Below are positions 1 to 57,028 of a stretch of DNA of 64,000 nucleotides, in pieces (positions within the stretch are counted from its first letter, which is position 1; every line of letters starts with the position of its first letter). A program made the translations under genes and the position numbers. The notes below the pieces were generated by a model. The model was given only the letters and a program-made list of their open reading frames with translations, was not told the DNA's origin and searched no databases. Source of the stretch: Pseudomonas sp. (lineage in GTDB: Bacteria > Pseudomonadota > Gammaproteobacteria > Pseudomonadales > Pseudomonadaceae); NCBI RefSeq assembly GCF_028293835.1, contig NZ_JAQGNX010000001.1, forward strand, positions 1 to 64,000, read 5' to 3'.

Positions 1-605
1 TTTTTTATAACAAGCATCCCGCCATCGACTGTAGTCATATGCTTGATGGCTTGAAAGGAAAATATTGCATAATCTCCGATGCTGCCAATTGGTTGGTCAT
101 CGTATTCAGCTCCCAGCGCGTGTGCACAATCCTCAATTAGAGACAAGCTATATCGGTCAGCAATATTTCTTAACTCTTTAAGACTCGCAGGGTAGCCCGC
201 ATAATGCACAACACAAATAGCTTTTGTATTCGTAGTTATCAGGGCCTCAACCGAAGCTGGAAACAAGTTTCCAGTCGTCGCGTCAACATCGGCAAATACG
301 GGTTTTGCGCCAACTTGCAGAATAGTAGTGTTAGTTGGCTCAGCGGTCATCGAGGTCGTTATCACCTCGTCTCCCGGCATAACGCCTGACAGCAGGAACG
401 CTAAGTGTAAGGCAGCTGTGCCGCTACTCGTGGCAAGTACGTTTTTCAATTTAAATTGTTCTGAAAACCTTTTTTCGAACTGGTAAACAAACTCCCCTTC
501 TGCGATCATCCCGCTATAAAGTACTGATTCCAAAGCTGGCATCAACCGATCACGCGAAGGCATCGCGACCTTTACTAGCGGAATCATGGGGTTTTTATTT
601 GACAT
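1..605 (-). CDS. DegT/DnrJ/EryC1/StrS sugar aminotransferase, 3' part outside the window
   Basis: This is the N-terminal 201 codons of a PLP-dependent nucleotide-sugar aminotransferase; the gene runs off the left edge, so it is absent from the ORF track. The translation begins MSNKNPMIPLVKVAMPSRD and contains TSSGTAALHLAFLL (PLP phosphate-binding region), VEDCAHALGA and FSFQAIKHMTTVDGG; the Lys in the last motif is the expected Schiff-base lysine of the family. The enzyme should transfer an amino group from glutamate to a keto sugar nucleotide, plausibly the dTDP-4-keto-6-deoxyhexose made by the rfbA/rfbB products upstream, but which sugar and which carbon cannot be read from half a gene. Its ATG lies 3 bases after the stop of the GNAT gene, so the two are probably translationally coupled and part of the O-antigen transcription unit. 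Confidence 0.88.
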   Translation of the reverse strand, partial: MSNKNPMIPLVKVAMPSRDRLMPALESVLYSGMIAEGEFVYQFEKRFSEQFKLKNVLATSSGTAALHLAFLLSGVMPGDEVITTSMTAEPTNTTILQVGAKPVFADVDATTGNLFPASVEALITTNTKAICVVHYAGYPASLKELRNIADRYSLSLIEDCAHALGAEYDDQPIGSIGDYAIFSFQAIKHMTTVDGGMLVIK

Positions 606-608
606 GAT

Positions 609-1475
609 TTAGACTCTATCAAGAAATTCGATTGCAATGTAATTTAATATGGATGAATTTTTTAATTCTTTAACCATACACACCGCTGAAGGTTCAAGGC
701 TGATTTCGAAGTTCCGTTCTAGCAATTCAACAATTATCCCATCGCTTTCTAACACGTTGAATGACCACTTATTTGGTAAAGAACTCATTAACAGGTCGAC
801 GACATCACTATTCTTCCCTTGCCATTTTGCTAATGTAATTCCCTTATTTTGGGTTTCCAGAACTACTATACTTGCAAGCTCACTTCTGATTAATTTACCG
901 GTTTTTGCGAAAGGTGGTAATCCTTGTTGCTTTTTCGTACTTAATAGATCTGGCCACACATCGGTCGAATAAATTACTTTGCACGTGTTTACACATTTTT
1001 GTTCAGCAGTTCCAAACATTTCTTGTACGTTCGAAATAAACCCGTGACGGGTGTAAATCTCTGGTAGTTGAGTCCAGAGTAGCAGTGCATCAAGATTAAT
1101 TTTCTTCCCATGTTCGATCGCTTCTGACATGAGGCGATTGCTAAAGCCGTTCCCCCTCCACCCCTCCGCCACACAGACCAAACCAATCAGCCCGATGTAT
1201 CTATCATCTGCCATGCTAATTATTTTTATTATTAGCGTTGCAATTATTACCTGCTTATTCTCAGGTTCAGCATCGTATAAACCGATGCAAACAACGTTTT
1301 CATTATTATCCATCCACGGAAAATGGACTGGAAGACTGATTCCGCGCCCTTTTGACGCAAAAAAAACGTTCCATAGTAGGGTTCGGCTAGGTGCTGGTAC
1401 ACCCGCCGTGAAAACAACCGTCAGAGTGTCGGGGTTGATCACTAAGTTAAGCTCCTGCCCGAGATCATAAATCAT
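609..1475 (-). CDS. GNAT-family N-acetyltransferase of the O-antigen locus
   Basis: A 288-residue protein with a GNAT core: a beta-strand/loop IGLIGLVCVAEGWRGNGFSN, in which RGNGFS is the acetyl-CoA pyrophosphate-binding loop, followed by LWTQLPEIYTRHGF, typical of the C-terminal half of the fold. The roughly 130 residues after it are unassigned and make the protein longer than a minimal GNAT. It sits between rfaH and a sugar aminotransferase and directly precedes the latter, so acylation of an amino sugar precursor is a reasonable guess, although the acceptor is unknown. An ops element lies about 90 bases upstream of its start. The Shine-Dalgarno (TTGGAT) is weak, so the exact start is uncertain. 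The region is more AT-rich than the core genes to the right, as is common for O-antigen loci. Confidence 0.75.
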   Translation of the reverse strand: MIYDLGQELNLVINPDTLTVVFTAGVPAPSRTLLWNVFFASKGRGISLPVHFPWMDNNENVVCIGLYDAEPENKQVIIATLIIKIISMADDRYIGLIGLVCVAEGWRGNGFSNRLMSEAIEHGKKINLDALLLWTQLPEIYTRHGFISNVQEMFGTAEQKCVNTCKVIYSTDVWPDLLSTKKQQGLPPFAKTGKLIRSELASIVVLETQNKGITLAKWQGKNSDVVDLLMSSLPNKWSFNVLESDGIIVELLERNFEISLEPSAVCMVKELKNSSILNYIAIEFLDRV

Positions 1476-1563: not shown

Positions 1564-1574
1564 ACGCTACCGCC
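1564..1574 (-). promoter_or_regulatory. ops element (RfaH recruitment site), exact match
   Basis: On the minus strand the sequence reads GGCGGTAGCGT, identical to the enterobacterial operon polarity suppressor element, inside a JUMPstart-like context (GGTAAATCCTGGG just upstream, GC after it). It lies between the stop of rfaH and the GNAT start, in the leader of the downstream polysaccharide genes. In the RfaH family, the paused RNA polymerase exposes this element on the non-template strand, where RfaH binds. That RfaH encoded next door acts here is inference. Confidence 0.75.
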
Positions 1575-1620
1575 CCAGGATTTACCGTTGGGTTCCTGAA
1601 AACGCGTTCATCTATTGTTC

Positions 1621-1645
1621 CCACTGAATCATTAGGACTCAGTGG
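1621..1645 (-). other. Hairpin directly after rfaH
   Basis: Seven-base perfect arms CCACTGA and TCAGTGG enclose an 11-base loop and begin 2 bases after the rfaH stop. No U-tract follows, so it is not a standard intrinsic terminator. It could be an RNA processing or protective stem-loop, or a partial attenuator between rfaH and the ops-led genes. Confidence 0.4.
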
Positions 1646-1647
1646 CC

Positions 1648-2178
1648 TCACCTGTTGCAGTCGATACTCGCCATCGGTACGGTAATTTGGTGTTGACGGT
1701 TTAGAAAATGGATCAGCAAAATAACTCGCTCCTCACCGTCCATTGAAATAAAGATTGCATCAAGCTCACTGGCTGCGCCATCAATAATTCGTACATTATC
1801 GCCTAAGCTTAGCTTCATCTTCACGTCGATTTCTACTCGATCCTGAAGCTGTTTAATAAGACTATCATCCACTGCAACTGGCGCTCCACCGAAGTTGACA
1901 ACACGACTGACTCCTCGCGTCGAGCGAAGTGGTCCCCAGTTGGATTCTCGGGGGAGGAAAATAAATAGGTAACCTGGAAACAGCGACTCAGTGACCCACA
2001 TCGGCTTGCCGCGGATAATTTTTTCAAATTTCCGCTTAGGCCGAAAAATTTCATAGCCTTGGCCAGCCAGATTCTCTTCAGCACGCTCATCCTGCCGTAG
2101 CTTGCACTGGACTAGGTACCAATTTCTCTCCGTCGCGTACGTTGAGCCATCTGCAGTGGCTGTAAAAATAGTCATCAT
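1648..2178 (-). CDS. rfaH: RfaH-type transcription antiterminator (NusG paralogue)
   Basis: About 176 residues. An N-terminal NGN domain starts at RNWYLVQCKLRQDERAEENL and includes ESLFPGYLFIFL, the NusG/RfaH signature; a C-terminal KOW-like domain begins near LSLGDNVRIIDGAASELDAI. Proteins of this family bind RNA polymerase at ops sites, suppress Rho-dependent polarity and help recruit ribosomes on long surface-polysaccharide operons. The ORF track extends to 2259, but I prefer the ATG-ATG pair at 2178/2175, preceded by GATGAAAGA, because the upstream extension does not look like NusG. It lies inside the locus it should control, downstream of wzz and upstream of the GNAT gene, with ops sites at 1564-1574 and 6098-6108. 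RfaH rather than housekeeping NusG follows from the sequence divergence and location. Confidence 0.88.
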   Translation of the reverse strand: MMTIFTATADGSTYATERNWYLVQCKLRQDERAEENLAGQGYEIFRPKRKFEKIIRGKPMWVTESLFPGYLFIFLPRESNWGPLRSTRGVSRVVNFGGAPVAVDDSLIKQLQDRVEIDVKMKLSLGDNVRIIDGAASELDAIFISMDGEERVILLIHFLNRQHQITVPMASIDCNR

Positions 2179-2595: not shown

Positions 2596-3648
2596 CTATC
2601 GACTCCGACCTTTTCGAACTAAAATCAAATGGCGGAACAGAGCGATCAGCAAACCTAAACCTCCACCCAGAATCATGCCTACTGCAACGATTAAAAGCTT
2701 TTTCGGTTTAATAGGACGATCTGGTTGTTCTACAGAGCCATCAACCCTATAAACCGACACTGCATTAGGATTAACTTGCATATTCTTGTAGAAGCTCTGT
2801 TTAATTTGCAATGATCGAAGAGAAACAATGAACGGGTCATTCGACTTACGTTCGTCGAGATTTCTGATTTCAGCCTCAAGCGCCTTGGTCCCACGCATAT
2901 AGGTTAGTTCGCCATTCATTGCGGCTGAAACTTCTGCCGCAACGTTGCCCGAAATTATTGGAGGGTCCGTAAGGTGGATAGCTTGTGCTATTTTTAACGC
3001 TTCATGCAATTGGGTTATGGAGTCTGCGCGGATTTTATCTTCGGTCTCCTGTAACGTTATAATTTGTTGACCTAAATTGCGTGCACGAACCTCCGCCTCA
3101 CGGGCAACGTTTTTAATCACTTCGTTTTTAGCTGCGACACCAGCCCGAGCAACAAATGCTTTAGTCCACTCTGTAGCTTGAGCTGGATTTTGACTCTGGA
3201 CACTTACCGAATAACGATCTGGTTGCTCTTTTGTAGGAAGCCCTATAGCCAAATCGTTCAAATACTCAGAATATAAACCATCTTGTGATCCGACTCTTCT
3301 AGCCTCTGGCAATGAAGGTAAATACACCTCTACAAAAAATGCCCTGCGCAAATCCTCGCTTTGAAGATTTCTGATAAAAACGTCATATATATCTCTTATA
3401 GAAAATGGAACAAGTTCAGCCGCTGTCGTCCGCCCGTAATTGAAATCGGCGATCTCATTCGACGTCGGAGGTTGCAAAAAAATGCGAGCCTCGTAGATAG
3501 GTTTAGTCAGAAGTGCATAGGCAGCAGCGATGGCGGTTACAAGTACCGCTACGCTCACGATCAGAAGCTTTTGCTTCCAAAGGACACCTAATAATTCGAA
3601 CAGATCAATTTCATCCGCATCCTGCGTGCTTGCTGAGTTATTCACCAT
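2596..3648 (-). CDS. wzz: Wzz-type O-antigen chain length determinant
   Basis: A 350-residue polysaccharide co-polymerase. Residues about 30-50 form the first membrane helix (KLLIVSVAVLVTAIAAAYAL), followed by a periplasmic domain rich in coiled-coil helices, and a second helix near the C terminus (LLIVAVGMILGGGLGLLIALF) preceded by the family's Pro-rich stretch PDRPIKPKK. This topology and motif are diagnostic of Wzz/Chain_length_det proteins, which set the modal length of Wzy-polymerised O-antigen in the inner membrane. The start ATG follows AGAGATCC. It lies about 115 bases downstream of rfbA in the same direction and is the boundary gene seen next to the ihfB-rpsA block in many pseudomonads. 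Confidence 0.92.
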   Translation of the reverse strand: MVNNSASTQDADEIDLFELLGVLWKQKLLIVSVAVLVTAIAAAYALLTKPIYEARIFLQPPTSNEIADFNYGRTTAAELVPFSIRDIYDVFIRNLQSEDLRRAFFVEVYLPSLPEARRVGSQDGLYSEYLNDLAIGLPTKEQPDRYSVSVQSQNPAQATEWTKAFVARAGVAAKNEVIKNVAREAEVRARNLGQQIITLQETEDKIRADSITQLHEALKIAQAIHLTDPPIISGNVAAEVSAAMNGELTYMRGTKALEAEIRNLDERKSNDPFIVSLRSLQIKQSFYKNMQVNPNAVSVYRVDGSVEQPDRPIKPKKLLIVAVGMILGGGLGLLIALFRHLILVRKGRSR

Positions 3649-3762: not shown

Positions 3763-4656
3763 CTAGCGACCCTGCTCGTCCAGCAGCTTCTGCAAATACA
3801 GCCCGTAGCCGGTCTTTTTCAACCGGCTCGCTTGTTCGCCCAATTTCGCCGCGTCAATCCAACCCGAATTGAACGCGATCTCTTCCAGACAAGCGACCTT
3901 CAAACCCTGACGCTGCTCAATTGTGTGAACAAAATGACTCGCCTCAAGCAGCGACTCATGAGTCCCGGTATCCAGCCAGGCGAAGCCACGACCCAATATC
4001 TCTACATTGAGGCTCTGCTGTTCGAGATAGGCGAGGTTGACGTCGGTGATTTCCAGCTCGCCCCGCTCGGAAGGCTTGATGCTTTTAGCAATTTCCACGA
4101 CCTGGTTGTCATAGAAATACAGGCCAGTGACCGCATAATTCGATTTCGGCACAGGCGGTTTTTCTTCAATGCTCAGGGCACGGCCAGATTTATCGAACTC
4201 GACTACACCAAAGCGCTCGGGATCGGCTACGTGGTAGCCGAACACCGTTGCCCCGTGAGTCTGGTCGTTAGCGGAGCGCAGGTTGTCGGAAAAGTGCTGG
4301 CCGTAAAATATGTTATCGCCCAGGATCAAGCAGCATGGGTCTTTGCCAATGAACGCTTCGCCGATGATGAAAGCCTGGGCCAAGCCATCAGGGGTAGGCT
4401 GTTCGGCGTACGTCAGCTGAATACCGTATTGACTACCATCTCCTAACAGCTTACGGAAGGAAGGGAGATCCTCCGGAGTAGAAATGATCAAGACTTCACG
4501 CATGCCGGCGAGCATCAGAACCGACAACGGATAGAAAATCATCGGCTTGTCGAAGATTGGCAGCATCTGTTTAGACACACCCAGCGTCAGGGGATGCAGG
4601 CGCGTGCCCGAACCACCAGCGAGGATAATGCCTTTACGAACAGGGGTGGTGGTCAT
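3763..4656 (-). CDS. rfbA: Glucose-1-phosphate thymidylyltransferase
   Basis: A 297-residue RmlA. It joins dTTP and glucose-1-phosphate to give dTDP-glucose, the first step of dTDP-deoxysugar synthesis in the cytoplasm. Visible signatures are [17 protein letters not shown] (nucleotide-binding loop), [26 protein letters not shown] and [20 protein letters not shown]. Length and sequence are typical of the short bacterial RmlA. Its ATG overlaps the stop of the rfbD remnant as ATGA, a relic of the normal rfbB-rfbD-rfbA arrangement. No rfbC follows it within the window; wzz comes next. Confidence 0.96.
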
Positions 4657-4964
4657 CTAGTCAGGGCTTCCGTAAGCATTCGGGTTACTCCACTTTGCCA
4701 ATCCGGCAAGTGCAGCGAAAAAAGTCGCGCAGTTTCTGAGTATCCAGACGAAAATTCAAGTGGTCGCCGAGCAGGTATTGGATAAGCCGCAGTAGCCATT
4801 GGTTCAACTTCCTCGACGGACGATCTTTCGCCGGCAGTCGCAGGATGGAAAACACCATGATTAGTGGAAGATTGCGACGCTGTTCGTAATCCACCCAGCA
4901 TATTGAGCAAGCGCTGTAGCTCCCAATCTACCTGGCTGTTTTTCCCTAACAACCAAATCTTCAT
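4653..4964 (-). pseudogene. rfbD: Remnant of rfbD (dTDP-4-dehydrorhamnose reductase)
   Basis: The 103-codon frame retains the first residues of RmlD ([18 protein letters not shown]) and its last part (YPIPARRP, then [20 protein letters not shown]), but about 190 residues of the usual ~300 are missing, including the catalytic YxxxK region. Within the tail, the conserved stretch NFRLDTQKLRDFF is in a second frame while both flanks are in the first, so two compensating frameshifts are present (an extra T near CCACTTGAAT, and base loss near TTTTTTCGCTG). The gene is therefore dead as a reductase. It still overlaps rfbB upstream and rfbA downstream by ATGA, so the frame may be kept because it couples translation of its neighbours. 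A functional short peptide cannot be excluded. Confidence 0.88.
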
Positions 4965-6326: not shown

Positions 6327-7787
6327 TTAGCTGCCAGCGATCACGACCTCCCCTTCCCGCTTCGCCAGCGAATACTTCCTACGTAAAACCTCACTCAAAG
6401 CCTTCTTCGCCCCAGCCTCCCCATGAACCAGCCTGATCTCCGAAGGCCACTCATCCATACCCGTCACAAAATCCACCAATCCCTGCTGATCAGCATGAGC
6501 GGAATAGCCGCCTAAGGTAGTGACGGCTGCACGAACCACGTAGCGATCTTTGTCCAGCTCAACATACCCGCCCCGTGGACCATGAGCCTGGAGCGCTGCC
6601 CCTGGAGTTCCTTTGGCCTGGTAGCCGACGAAGATCACGTTATGACGGCTGTCACCCAGCATGGCTTTCAAGTAGTTAACGATTCGGCCACCTGCGCACA
6701 TCCCGTGGCCAGCAATCACAATCGCCGGGCGAGCGGTGCTTGTCAGGTAATTAACGGTTCGCAGGTGTTGGTCGTGGCTGTCGATGGTGACCAATTGAGA
6801 GAACTTGAGCGGTGTGCGACCGCTTTCGAGCCGAGCCGATGCTTCGGCATCCCAGGTATCGTCGAATTGCTGATAAACCTTTGTGATGCGACTTGCCAGC
6901 GGAGAATCGAGGATGATCGGCAACTGCGGCCAGTTAACGGTTTCGCCTCGCTGATTGTCCCCTTGCGTAAGGTAGGTGTTGTGCCCAAGCGCTTTGCGGT
7001 GAAGGATGTCCTCGATCTCGTAGAGCAGCTCTTGAGTACGGCCCAGGCTGAACGCGGGGATTAATATCGTGCCGTTGTCTTCAAGCGCTTTATCGATAGC
7101 CTGCTCCAGGCGCAGGTGACGGGTCGTGCGGTCTTCATGCAGACGATCACCGTAGGTACTTTCCAACAGCAGAATATCCGCACGCTCCGGGGATTTGGGG
7201 CTTGGCAATAGGGGGGTGTGCGACGCACCCAGGTCACCGGAGAACACCACGCGCTGCTGCCTGTTTTCCACGTGATAAACCATGTCGCATTCGACGTAGG
7301 CCGAGCCTAAGACATGGCCGGCGCGCTGCAGGCGAATACGACAGGTCAGTTCCGGCAAGCTAATAAGGTCGAACCACGTATTGAAGGGCAACGCGATGGT
7401 GCGCTTGGCAATCAGCTCAAGGTATTGGTCAACCTCTTTCTGGGTACGACCGACTTGAAGCCGAAAGGCATCTTCCAGAACCAGAGGCATCAGCTGAGCC
7501 GAGGGCTCGCTGCAGAGTATCGGGCCCGAGAAGCCCGCCGCCAACAACTGAGGGATGCGACCGATGTGGTCGGCATGAACATGAGTCACGATAAGCGCTT
7601 TGATGGTTTTTAGCGAAAACAGCACTGCGGATTGCGCGGCCGCAGCCTCCTTTCCGTTGCCGACATCAGAACCTTGAAACAAGCCACAATCAATCAGGAA
7701 GCTATGCTCGGCATCAACACACAGTTGATGACATGAACCGGTAACGCCTTGTGTAGCACCGTGATGAATGATCTCAGGAAAAAGCAT
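6327..7787 (-). CDS. Metallo-beta-lactamase/beta-CASP ribonuclease-like protein
   Basis: A 486-residue member of the CPSF73/Ysh1-like group of RNA-processing hydrolases. The MBL half carries the zinc motif THVHADHIGRIP, then RAGHVLGSAYVE and FSGDLGASHTPLL; the beta-CASP insert follows with STYGDR, IPAFSLGRTQELL, ILDSPLASRITKVY and IAGHGMCAGGRI; the C-terminal part has LGGYSAHADQQGLVDFV, supplying the last metal-binding His. All expected metal ligands are present. Related bacterial proteins act as endo- or exoribonucleases, but the substrate of this one is unknown. It is a single gene between the O-antigen promoter region and lapA, and its start at 7787 is followed directly by the family's conserved N terminus. 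Confidence 0.88.
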   Translation of the reverse strand: MLFPEIIHHGATQGVTGSCHQLCVDAEHSFLIDCGLFQGSDVGNGKEAAAAQSAVLFSLKTIKALIVTHVHADHIGRIPQLLAAGFSGPILCSEPSAQLMPLVLEDAFRLQVGRTQKEVDQYLELIAKRTIALPFNTWFDLISLPELTCRIRLQRAGHVLGSAYVECDMVYHVENRQQRVVFSGDLGASHTPLLPSPKSPERADILLLESTYGDRLHEDRTTRHLRLEQAIDKALEDNGTILIPAFSLGRTQELLYEIEDILHRKALGHNTYLTQGDNQRGETVNWPQLPIILDSPLASRITKVYQQFDDTWDAEASARLESGRTPLKFSQLVTIDSHDQHLRTVNYLTSTARPAIVIAGHGMCAGGRIVNYLKAMLGDSRHNVIFVGYQAKGTPGAALQAHGPRGGYVELDKDRYVVRAAVTTLGGYSAHADQQGLVDFVTGMDEWPSEIRLVHGEAGAKKALSEVLRRKYSLAKREGEVVIAGS

Positions 7788-20882: not shown

Positions 20883-21429
20883 GAGAAGCCTGATTCCTTT
20901 TTCTGGTGAAACTTCGTCACATCCATGCGGGACGAACGAAGCTCGCCGCTGCAGGCGTTTGCCATGCAGCGACTTACGACAAATCAACGAGTTGTGCCAT
21001 GGATCTGCGCAGTAAAGGCAGCGACATTGCACTGCCCTGGAAACCGCCGAATGTTATCACAATCGCGATCAGGGACCTATCCCTTGAAAGCCTGCCGAAC
21101 CACTAATCGATGAGTGATCGGGCTTTATGGCGGCTCTGAGGGGCTTGGGCGGGTTTCGTAGCGGCTTGCTGACGGGTGTAAGTGATGCTGGAGACTGTGA
21201 AAAGGCCAGCATGGGGTTGCTTTGGTATGGAAATGTTGGTTGGCGTTGGATTTGGAGATCACGTGGCCTCGAAATCTCTGCAGGAGCGAATTCATTCGCG
21301 ATGGAGCGCGAAGCGGTCCCCAAGCGGTAAATACAGAACTAGCAGTCAGAAACCGAATCCGCCACTCCACGGCCTTCGGCCAGAAGCGGGCAGGCAGCAG
21401 CCCAAACGCATAACTGCTGTTGATCTTCG

Positions 21430-56545: not shown

Positions 56546-56657
56546 CTCAGCTCTCCGCTTGAGGCAGGCGATAGCAAACGGAAGGCACTGAAATTGACTG
56601 CCAGCACGGCCCAAAAAGCCCTGCGCAGAGCATCGCCCGCCGTGATGCTGTTGAATG

Positions 56658-56853
56658 GATCAGGCCGGTCTCCGGGCTCATGAGTGGGAATTCCCTGCTA
56701 TGCGCCTTCCCATGTCGCTTCGGACACAGTGGCTGAAATGCACAGCTTCGACTCATTTACCGTTGCGGGGGCAGCGCCGGGATCGAGCGCTTGACGCGCC
56801 CTCACCGGCTTCCCTGTTTCACTCCGCCAATCGTTGATTGCGAAGCACCTGAA
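56658..56853 (-). promoter_or_regulatory. Cobalamin riboswitch (AdoCbl type)
   Basis: On the minus strand, from 5' to 3', the region holds TTTCAGGTGCTTCGC, then GGGAAGCCGGTGAG, GCTGCCCCCGCAACGGTAA, a GCCACTG element, and the B12 box GAGCCCGGAGACCGGCC. These are the conserved landmarks of the cobalamin riboswitch in correct order, with TCAGG/CCTGA able to close the P1 stem. It lies about 110 bases upstream of cobO, so B12 coenzyme should repress the whole cob operon. Confidence 0.95.
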
Positions 56854-57028
56854 ACACGTCGCGAAGGGTAGAGGGTTGGGGGTAGAGCGTCAATCAAAGT
56901 GCCGCTTGCTTTGGGACGCTTGAACGGTTTAAACCACATACGGGGTCGCGCACCCGGAAAGTTGAACCTCAACAGCTCAACTGCCTCTGATTATTGACGC
57001 GACTTTTCGTCTTTCATGGAGATCACTC
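56854..57028. other. Divergent promoter region of the cob operon and the sugar dehydrogenase
   Basis: About 175 bases between the riboswitch and the plus-strand lipoprotein gene. The promoter of the riboswitch RNA (minus strand) must lie here, but no clean -35/-10 pair was recognised. The plus-strand gene has GGAGATCACTC as ribosome-binding site. Confidence 0.45.

Follow-up and report, generated by a model that had tools for sequence, protein, structure and literature searches.

Comparison of Pseudomonas genomes shows that, in many species of the genus, rfaH lies about 50-100 bases ahead of an ops element. In the 64,000 nt stretch of Pseudomonas sp. DNA analyzed here (termed the window), this pair stands at the head of an O-antigen locus, and we hold with good confidence that rfaH is the regulator of that locus and that the hairpin and ops behind it form the site at which RfaH is loaded. 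The anatomy of the locus, its conservation, the co-occurrence of the element with RfaH and a breakpoint in DNA identity at ops are direct observations.

On the minus strand of the window, genes and elements follow one another in the order wzz, rfaH, a hairpin just past the rfaH stop codon, a CAGGA-N13-TCCTG hairpin, ops, a GNAT acetyltransferase gene and a DegT-type aminotransferase gene. The wzz gene (2596-3648; PF02706), which encodes an O-antigen chain-length determinant, is followed just upstream of rfaH by a weak terminator-like hairpin on the same strand (2562-2580), called by consensus scan only in a search that found one such site against 1.1 expected. Further upstream of rfaH are rmlA, rmlB and a gene that we take to be rpsA, and the region is therefore recognized as the O-antigen locus adjoining rpsA, a gene that is 93-97% identical in relatives. 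The first gene past ops is that of the GNAT acetyltransferase (609-1475, minus strand; PF00583), and the second is that of the DegT/DnrJ/EryC1/StrS aminotransferase (3-605, minus strand; PF01041, 3e-65). In a syntenic relative (locus L079), the acetyltransferase occupies the same position (47% identical), the aminotransferase is 84% identical, and the operon goes on with a second aminotransferase, a flippase-like protein and an epimerase/dehydratase. A preliminary description of this DNA was right that ops leads the GNAT-aminotransferase genes, but the long distal operon of which it spoke is cut off by the contig end, which truncates the aminotransferase gene itself.

Several other features of the window and its relatives were recorded. 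Between rmlB and rmlA lies a remnant of rmlD (4653-4964), of which only a brief initial part and the final ~55 residues of the RmlD domain survive; an intact rmlD is present on contig C31. Many O-antigen loci of Pseudomonas (L080, L083, L096, L098, L099, L117 and others) have a gene for a nuclease-like β-CASP/RMMBL metallo-hydrolase immediately ahead of rfaH; the corresponding gene of the window (6327-7787) is further upstream, before rmlB. Also on the minus strand are a cobalamin riboswitch (56646-56867) and a gyrA leader RNA (20894-20979), both ordinary representatives above their Rfam thresholds. The genome is a 95%-complete draft of 187 contigs, among which housekeeping NusG was not detected. 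The missing NusG is probably an assembly gap, and other parts of the genome may therefore be missing as well.

The rfaH gene (1648-2178, minus strand) ends with a stop codon at 1648-1650. Its start had been placed at 2178, which agrees with the likely ATG at 2178 or 2175, and the longest open reading frame begins at 2259. The 203-amino-acid frame encodes an RfaH-type NusG paralogue, with an NGN domain (PF02357) and a KOW-like C-terminal domain, that passes NCBI's RfaH equivalog model TIGR01955 (156.1 bits; cut-off 144.5) and NF006534 (131; cut-off 124). The same protein scores far under the cut-off of the nusG model (40.6 versus 135.7) and also falls under those for UpxY (58.6 versus 100) and LoaP (37.2 versus 125). 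A phmmer search matches it to E. coli RfaH structures at 8e-25, and in Foldseek the top matches of its AlphaFold2 model (pLDDT 78.5) include the ops-bound form of E. coli RfaH. That model, built from a 45-row alignment, has a β-barrel C-terminal domain. Because E. coli RfaH was not run as a control, this domain cannot separate a metamorphic from a monomorphic fold.

The residues E48, R138 and F130, which in E. coli RfaH take part in the interdomain contacts of the closed state, are kept in the window protein, as are K10, Q13, R16, Q24, T72 and R73. In E. coli, RfaH contacts ops through K10, H20, R23 and R73 (PMC5995543; PMC13015549 is a further source of residue roles). Two of these four positions differ in the window strain, where H20 is replaced by N and R23 by G. 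Among the 46 relatives that have ops downstream, 40 carry asparagine at position 20, which is thus the usual state, and glycine at position 23 occurs in this set in the window protein only. To judge from the residue change, R23G might weaken ops recognition in this strain.

A sequence search of the window finds the exact 12-mer ops GGCGGTAGCGTG on the minus strand at 1574-1563, identical to the ops of the E. coli K-12 JUMPstart element. An exact ops had been described there before, and the match of GGCGGTAGCGT at 1564-1574 on the minus strand bears this out, extending by one base to the 12-mer; the distance from the rfaH stop codon to the start of ops, previously put at about 75 bases, measures 73 nt. 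Read along the non-template strand, the sequence matches GGCGGTAGCNT(G), and it stands ahead of the GNAT-aminotransferase genes, as expected for an operon leader. Directly upstream of ops is a JUMPstart-like hairpin, CAGGA-N13-TCCTG (1576-1598, minus strand). In an alignment of 32 sequences, 93% of cells in the stem pair, two of the pairs show changes on both sides, and the covariation score of the stem was reached by none of 500 shuffles. Across the aligned elements, the core of ops hardly varies. A 5-bp covarying stem at constant distance from ops, ahead of polysaccharide genes, constitutes a JUMPstart-type arrangement, even though the window element scores 20.2 bits against the Rfam JUMPstart model RF01707 and so stays below the gathering score of 35.

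By itself the 12-mer match is weak, because a dinucleotide model expects the bare sequence about once in a genome of this size. Three exact copies are present in the genome: the one in the window, one in an exopolysaccharide locus on contig C86, and one on contig C134 that lies antisense within a presumably purA-like reading frame and is probably a chance match. The 17-mer CCTGGGGCGGTAGCGTG, by comparison, is expected 0.0009 times per genome. For the window ops a chance origin was ruled out by this rarity, by the conserved spacing and by the co-occurrence with RfaH.

This co-occurrence was examined in 400 Pseudomonas genomes, of which 141 contain relatives of RfaH and 259 contain none. The extended element CCTKGGGCGGTAGCRTG is present in 50 of the 400, and comparison of the two lists places all 50 among the RfaH-positive genomes and none among the 259 RfaH-negative ones (hypergeometric 2.7e-26, a value that ignores relatedness, so that the true significance is smaller). 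The reversed pattern, searched as a control in the same genomes, gave no matches. Most copies of the extended element lie close to an rfaH gene; the exceptions are one copy 3.7 Mb away in genome G310 and extra copies in G278 and G230. Two loci carry further copies of the element downstream (three extra in L093 of G244, two in L090 of G209), and genome G404 has two separate rfaH-ops modules 37 kb apart (L082 and L084).

The loci around rfaH were compared in a set of 95 from the window's genome and its relatives, plus two from named genomes. In all 22 rpsA-wzz O-antigen loci, ops follows the rfaH stop codon on the same strand, at 50-100 nt in 21 of them and at 318 nt in one, which belongs to another family of the order. 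These 22 include a locus whose rfaH has an in-frame stop (G035) and three in which ops has one mismatch or an altered last base. The preliminary description had proposed examining close relatives for conserved rfaH-ops spacing, and the element is kept in every one of these loci. In the RfaH tree, the window protein belongs to a 31-row clade, each row of which has ops shortly past the stop codon. Named loci from Pseudomonas sp. BGI-2 and P. lundensis cluster with the window. The genes past ops vary widely between loci (GNAT-DegT, rmlA, rmlB and others). Together, the comparative sequence data support the site as a genuine, conserved RfaH-associated element.

The constancy of rfaH and ops ends abruptly at the element. 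When pairs of loci with ops after rfaH were aligned as DNA through rfaH, the alignments ended a median of 3 nt past the last base of ops, and this was true also of pairs that are 84-94% identical through rfaH. Among 46 pairs that are at least 80% identical and reach rfaH, 32 end 1-20 nt past ops and 2 end at or before it. For example, L090 and L092 are 93.5% identical across rfaH and ops, and similarity is gone within 5 nt. Since identity ends right after ops, the rfaH-ops pair would represent an unchanging left-hand boundary of O-antigen operons that can be exchanged, with the operon body apparently swapped repeatedly while the border was kept. Every cluster that recombines into the place after ops would then probably come under RfaH control. 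A swap boundary at ops offers a simple account of how new O-antigen clusters could join existing control.

Other arrangements of rfaH and ops occur in the genus. Eight further loci have ops 318-666 nt past rfaH, and in 18 loci ops is on the strand opposite rfaH, 3.5-5.4 kb away. On contig C86 of the window's own genome (G000, L032), the 44%-identical second RfaH (78422-78895) lies within an exopolysaccharide-type operon, with the exact ops (86960-86971) ~8.5 kb upstream of rfaH and an ops-like sequence ~100 nt ahead of that ops; this layout is also kept in three other genomes (G018, G020 and G022). The C86 match was first recognized by its NusG domain. An assignment as housekeeping NusG was rejected on its score of 58.4 against the nusG cut-off of 135.7 and on its identity to the window RfaH, and with it the assumption of a single RfaH per genome was given up.

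Thirty loci were at first labeled as having no ops, but in 23 of these, which form one clade, a variant element, GCGGTAGCTTT, was recognized a short way ahead of rfaH. Within that clade (support 100/98; L033-L037, L127, L129-L132, L139, L140, L144, L146, L150, L151 and L154-L160), the GTGCGGTAGCTTTG-type element is 150-340 nt ahead of rfaH and in many members is preceded by a GGTC...GACC hairpin. In L130, rfaH is followed by genes for a porin-like protein, a polysaccharide export protein and a Wzc-like protein. Of the 30 loci, a set that includes the clade of 23, 17 encode an RfaH with Q at residue 23. The variant element, with one mismatch at most, is found in 35 genomes, 34 of which are RfaH-positive by list comparison. 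There is perhaps an even chance that rfaH and JUMPstart-ops form a portable control module, one that stays in place as the left edge while the polysaccharide operons beyond it are exchanged, with at least four lineage-specific layouts in the genus (ops shortly past rfaH, divergent, ~8.5 kb upstream, or variant and ahead of rfaH) that make up a cis-trans series in which recognition residue and element change together. If this proposal is true, the layouts would grade naturally from cis-acting to trans-acting RfaH.

The preliminary description placed rfaH and ops in one transcription unit and proposed a local feed-forward loop. The layout fits a shared unit. A consensus scan of the window found no terminator and no promoter between rfaH and ops, and no run of five or more T residues occurs in this interval in 38 loci. 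The hairpin right after the rfaH stop codon (CCACTGAGTC...GATTCAGTGG; 1621-1645, minus strand), predicted by folding, has no T-tract behind it; foldable stretches of -5 kcal/mol or better follow the stop codon in 34 of 38 relatives, a count not compared with shuffles. The shortest intervals from stop codon to ops are 50-51 nt, of which only ~15 nt are not taken up by the element, so that in those species a separate promoter would not fit between rfaH and ops. The promoter of rfaH itself was not found by a sigma-70 scan of the window, and a promoter inside rfaH is a possible alternative source of the leader. A transcript shared by rfaH and ops would accommodate these observations.

From E. coli biology, RNA polymerase would be expected to pause on reaching ops, where RfaH would bind the looped non-template strand and shut out NusG and Rho; the polymerase carrying RfaH could then run through the long and often exchanged O-antigen operon. 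With rfaH upstream of its own loading site, expression of rfaH would need no RfaH. We therefore propose that the layout is one of feed-forward rather than a self-activating loop. The window locus has no ops upstream of rfaH, which fits the feed-forward layout, and a one-mismatch ops match lies within 1 kb upstream of rfaH in two relatives. A feed-forward arrangement is likely, although the second RfaH on C86 could act on the same site in trans.

This last point opens a somewhat doubtful but real possibility, namely that ops works but that rfaH and ops are separate units, with RfaH from the local gene or from C86 acting in trans and adjacency reflecting co-inheritance only. E. coli RfaH does work in trans, a second RfaH is available in this genome, and the loci with rfaH and ops on opposite strands imply that a shared transcript is not required in general. 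Such a reading sits poorly with the tight spacing kept across a deep clade and with gaps of as little as 50 nt that contain no intervening terminator. A further reading is that this RfaH is constitutively active and NusG-like (monomorphic) and is loaded in cis close to where it is encoded; the chief role of ops would then be to pause the polymerase, with strict recognition of the site less important. We regard this as unlikely. A 2026 preprint reports monomorphic RfaH beside operons in 7 of 10 cases versus 17 of 212 for metamorphic RfaH (PMC13015549), and AlphaFold2 gives a β C-terminal domain for the C86 protein as well as the window RfaH; these predictions come from shallow alignments with no E. 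coli control, and their use to tell the two forms apart was dropped. Against a monomorphic protein are the near-invariance of the ops core and the conservation of E48, R138 and F130.

The breakpoint could also be read to mean that the element persists chiefly because it serves as a border for recombination in O-antigen exchange, its regulatory role being secondary or lost in this strain. The end of identity right past ops in most pairs and the R23G change in the window RfaH both agree with this idea. A pure border would not need RfaH, however, and the element is absent from every sampled RfaH-negative genome, which makes this explanation very improbable. Regulation of the O-antigen locus by RfaH loaded at ops remains our preferred reading.

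Linkage of RfaH-like proteins to polysaccharide genes is not new in itself, having been described for the envelope-linked RfaH clusters CL2-CL8 (Wang et al., 2020; PMC7593976) and for operon-adjacent monomorphic RfaH (PMC13015549). The hairpin as such is likewise known, since Weinberg et al. reported a stem-loop in JUMPstart elements (PMC2864571). Pseudomonas is not mentioned in the main texts of PMC7593976 and PMC13015549, and we found no report of the rfaH-then-ops arrangement in this genus in the open-access literature. What is new is the conserved order of rfaH then ops, the breakpoint at ops and the existence of at least three other layouts in the genus. It is an open question by what means a scarce paralogue of NusG reaches its small set of targets amid an excess of NusG, and how RfaH acting in trans arose from cis-acting ancestors; the introduction of PMC13015549 states that neither direct nor indirect evidence exists for extant monomorphic forms regulating in cis. 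Pseudomonas offers, within a single genus and in strains open to manipulation, a series of layouts with both the canonical ops and a variant of it.

Among known systems, UpxY, LoaP, TaA, ActX and RfaH CL2-CL8 (PMC7593976) share with the Pseudomonas locus the placement of the regulator gene within or next to the long locus that it controls, in many cases one for polysaccharide. UpxY acts in the leader upstream of upxY (PMC7819879), whereas Pseudomonas rfaH precedes a canonical, E. coli-type ops. The monomorphic RfaH homologues found beside long operons (PMC13015549) resemble the window protein in being operon-adjacent and perhaps in the β C-terminal domain, which AlphaFold2 predicted without a control, but the window combines a canonical ops with retention of the three closed-state residues. 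In the Rfam JUMPstart RNA (RF01707), the ops half agrees letter for letter with the Pseudomonas element, and the helix half of the latter misfits the model. The galF-rfbB interval of E. coli K-12 has a CTGG/CCAG stem at the place of the Pseudomonas CAGGA/TCCTG stem. The closest counterpart is E. coli RfaH with ops/JUMPstart, with which the window shares an RfaH equivalog match, an exact ops and an O-antigen operon as target. In E. coli, these elements precede O-antigen, core and capsule operons and rfaH is unlinked to its targets, a contrast correctly drawn in the preliminary description, whereas in Pseudomonas rfaH lies 50-100 nt before ops.
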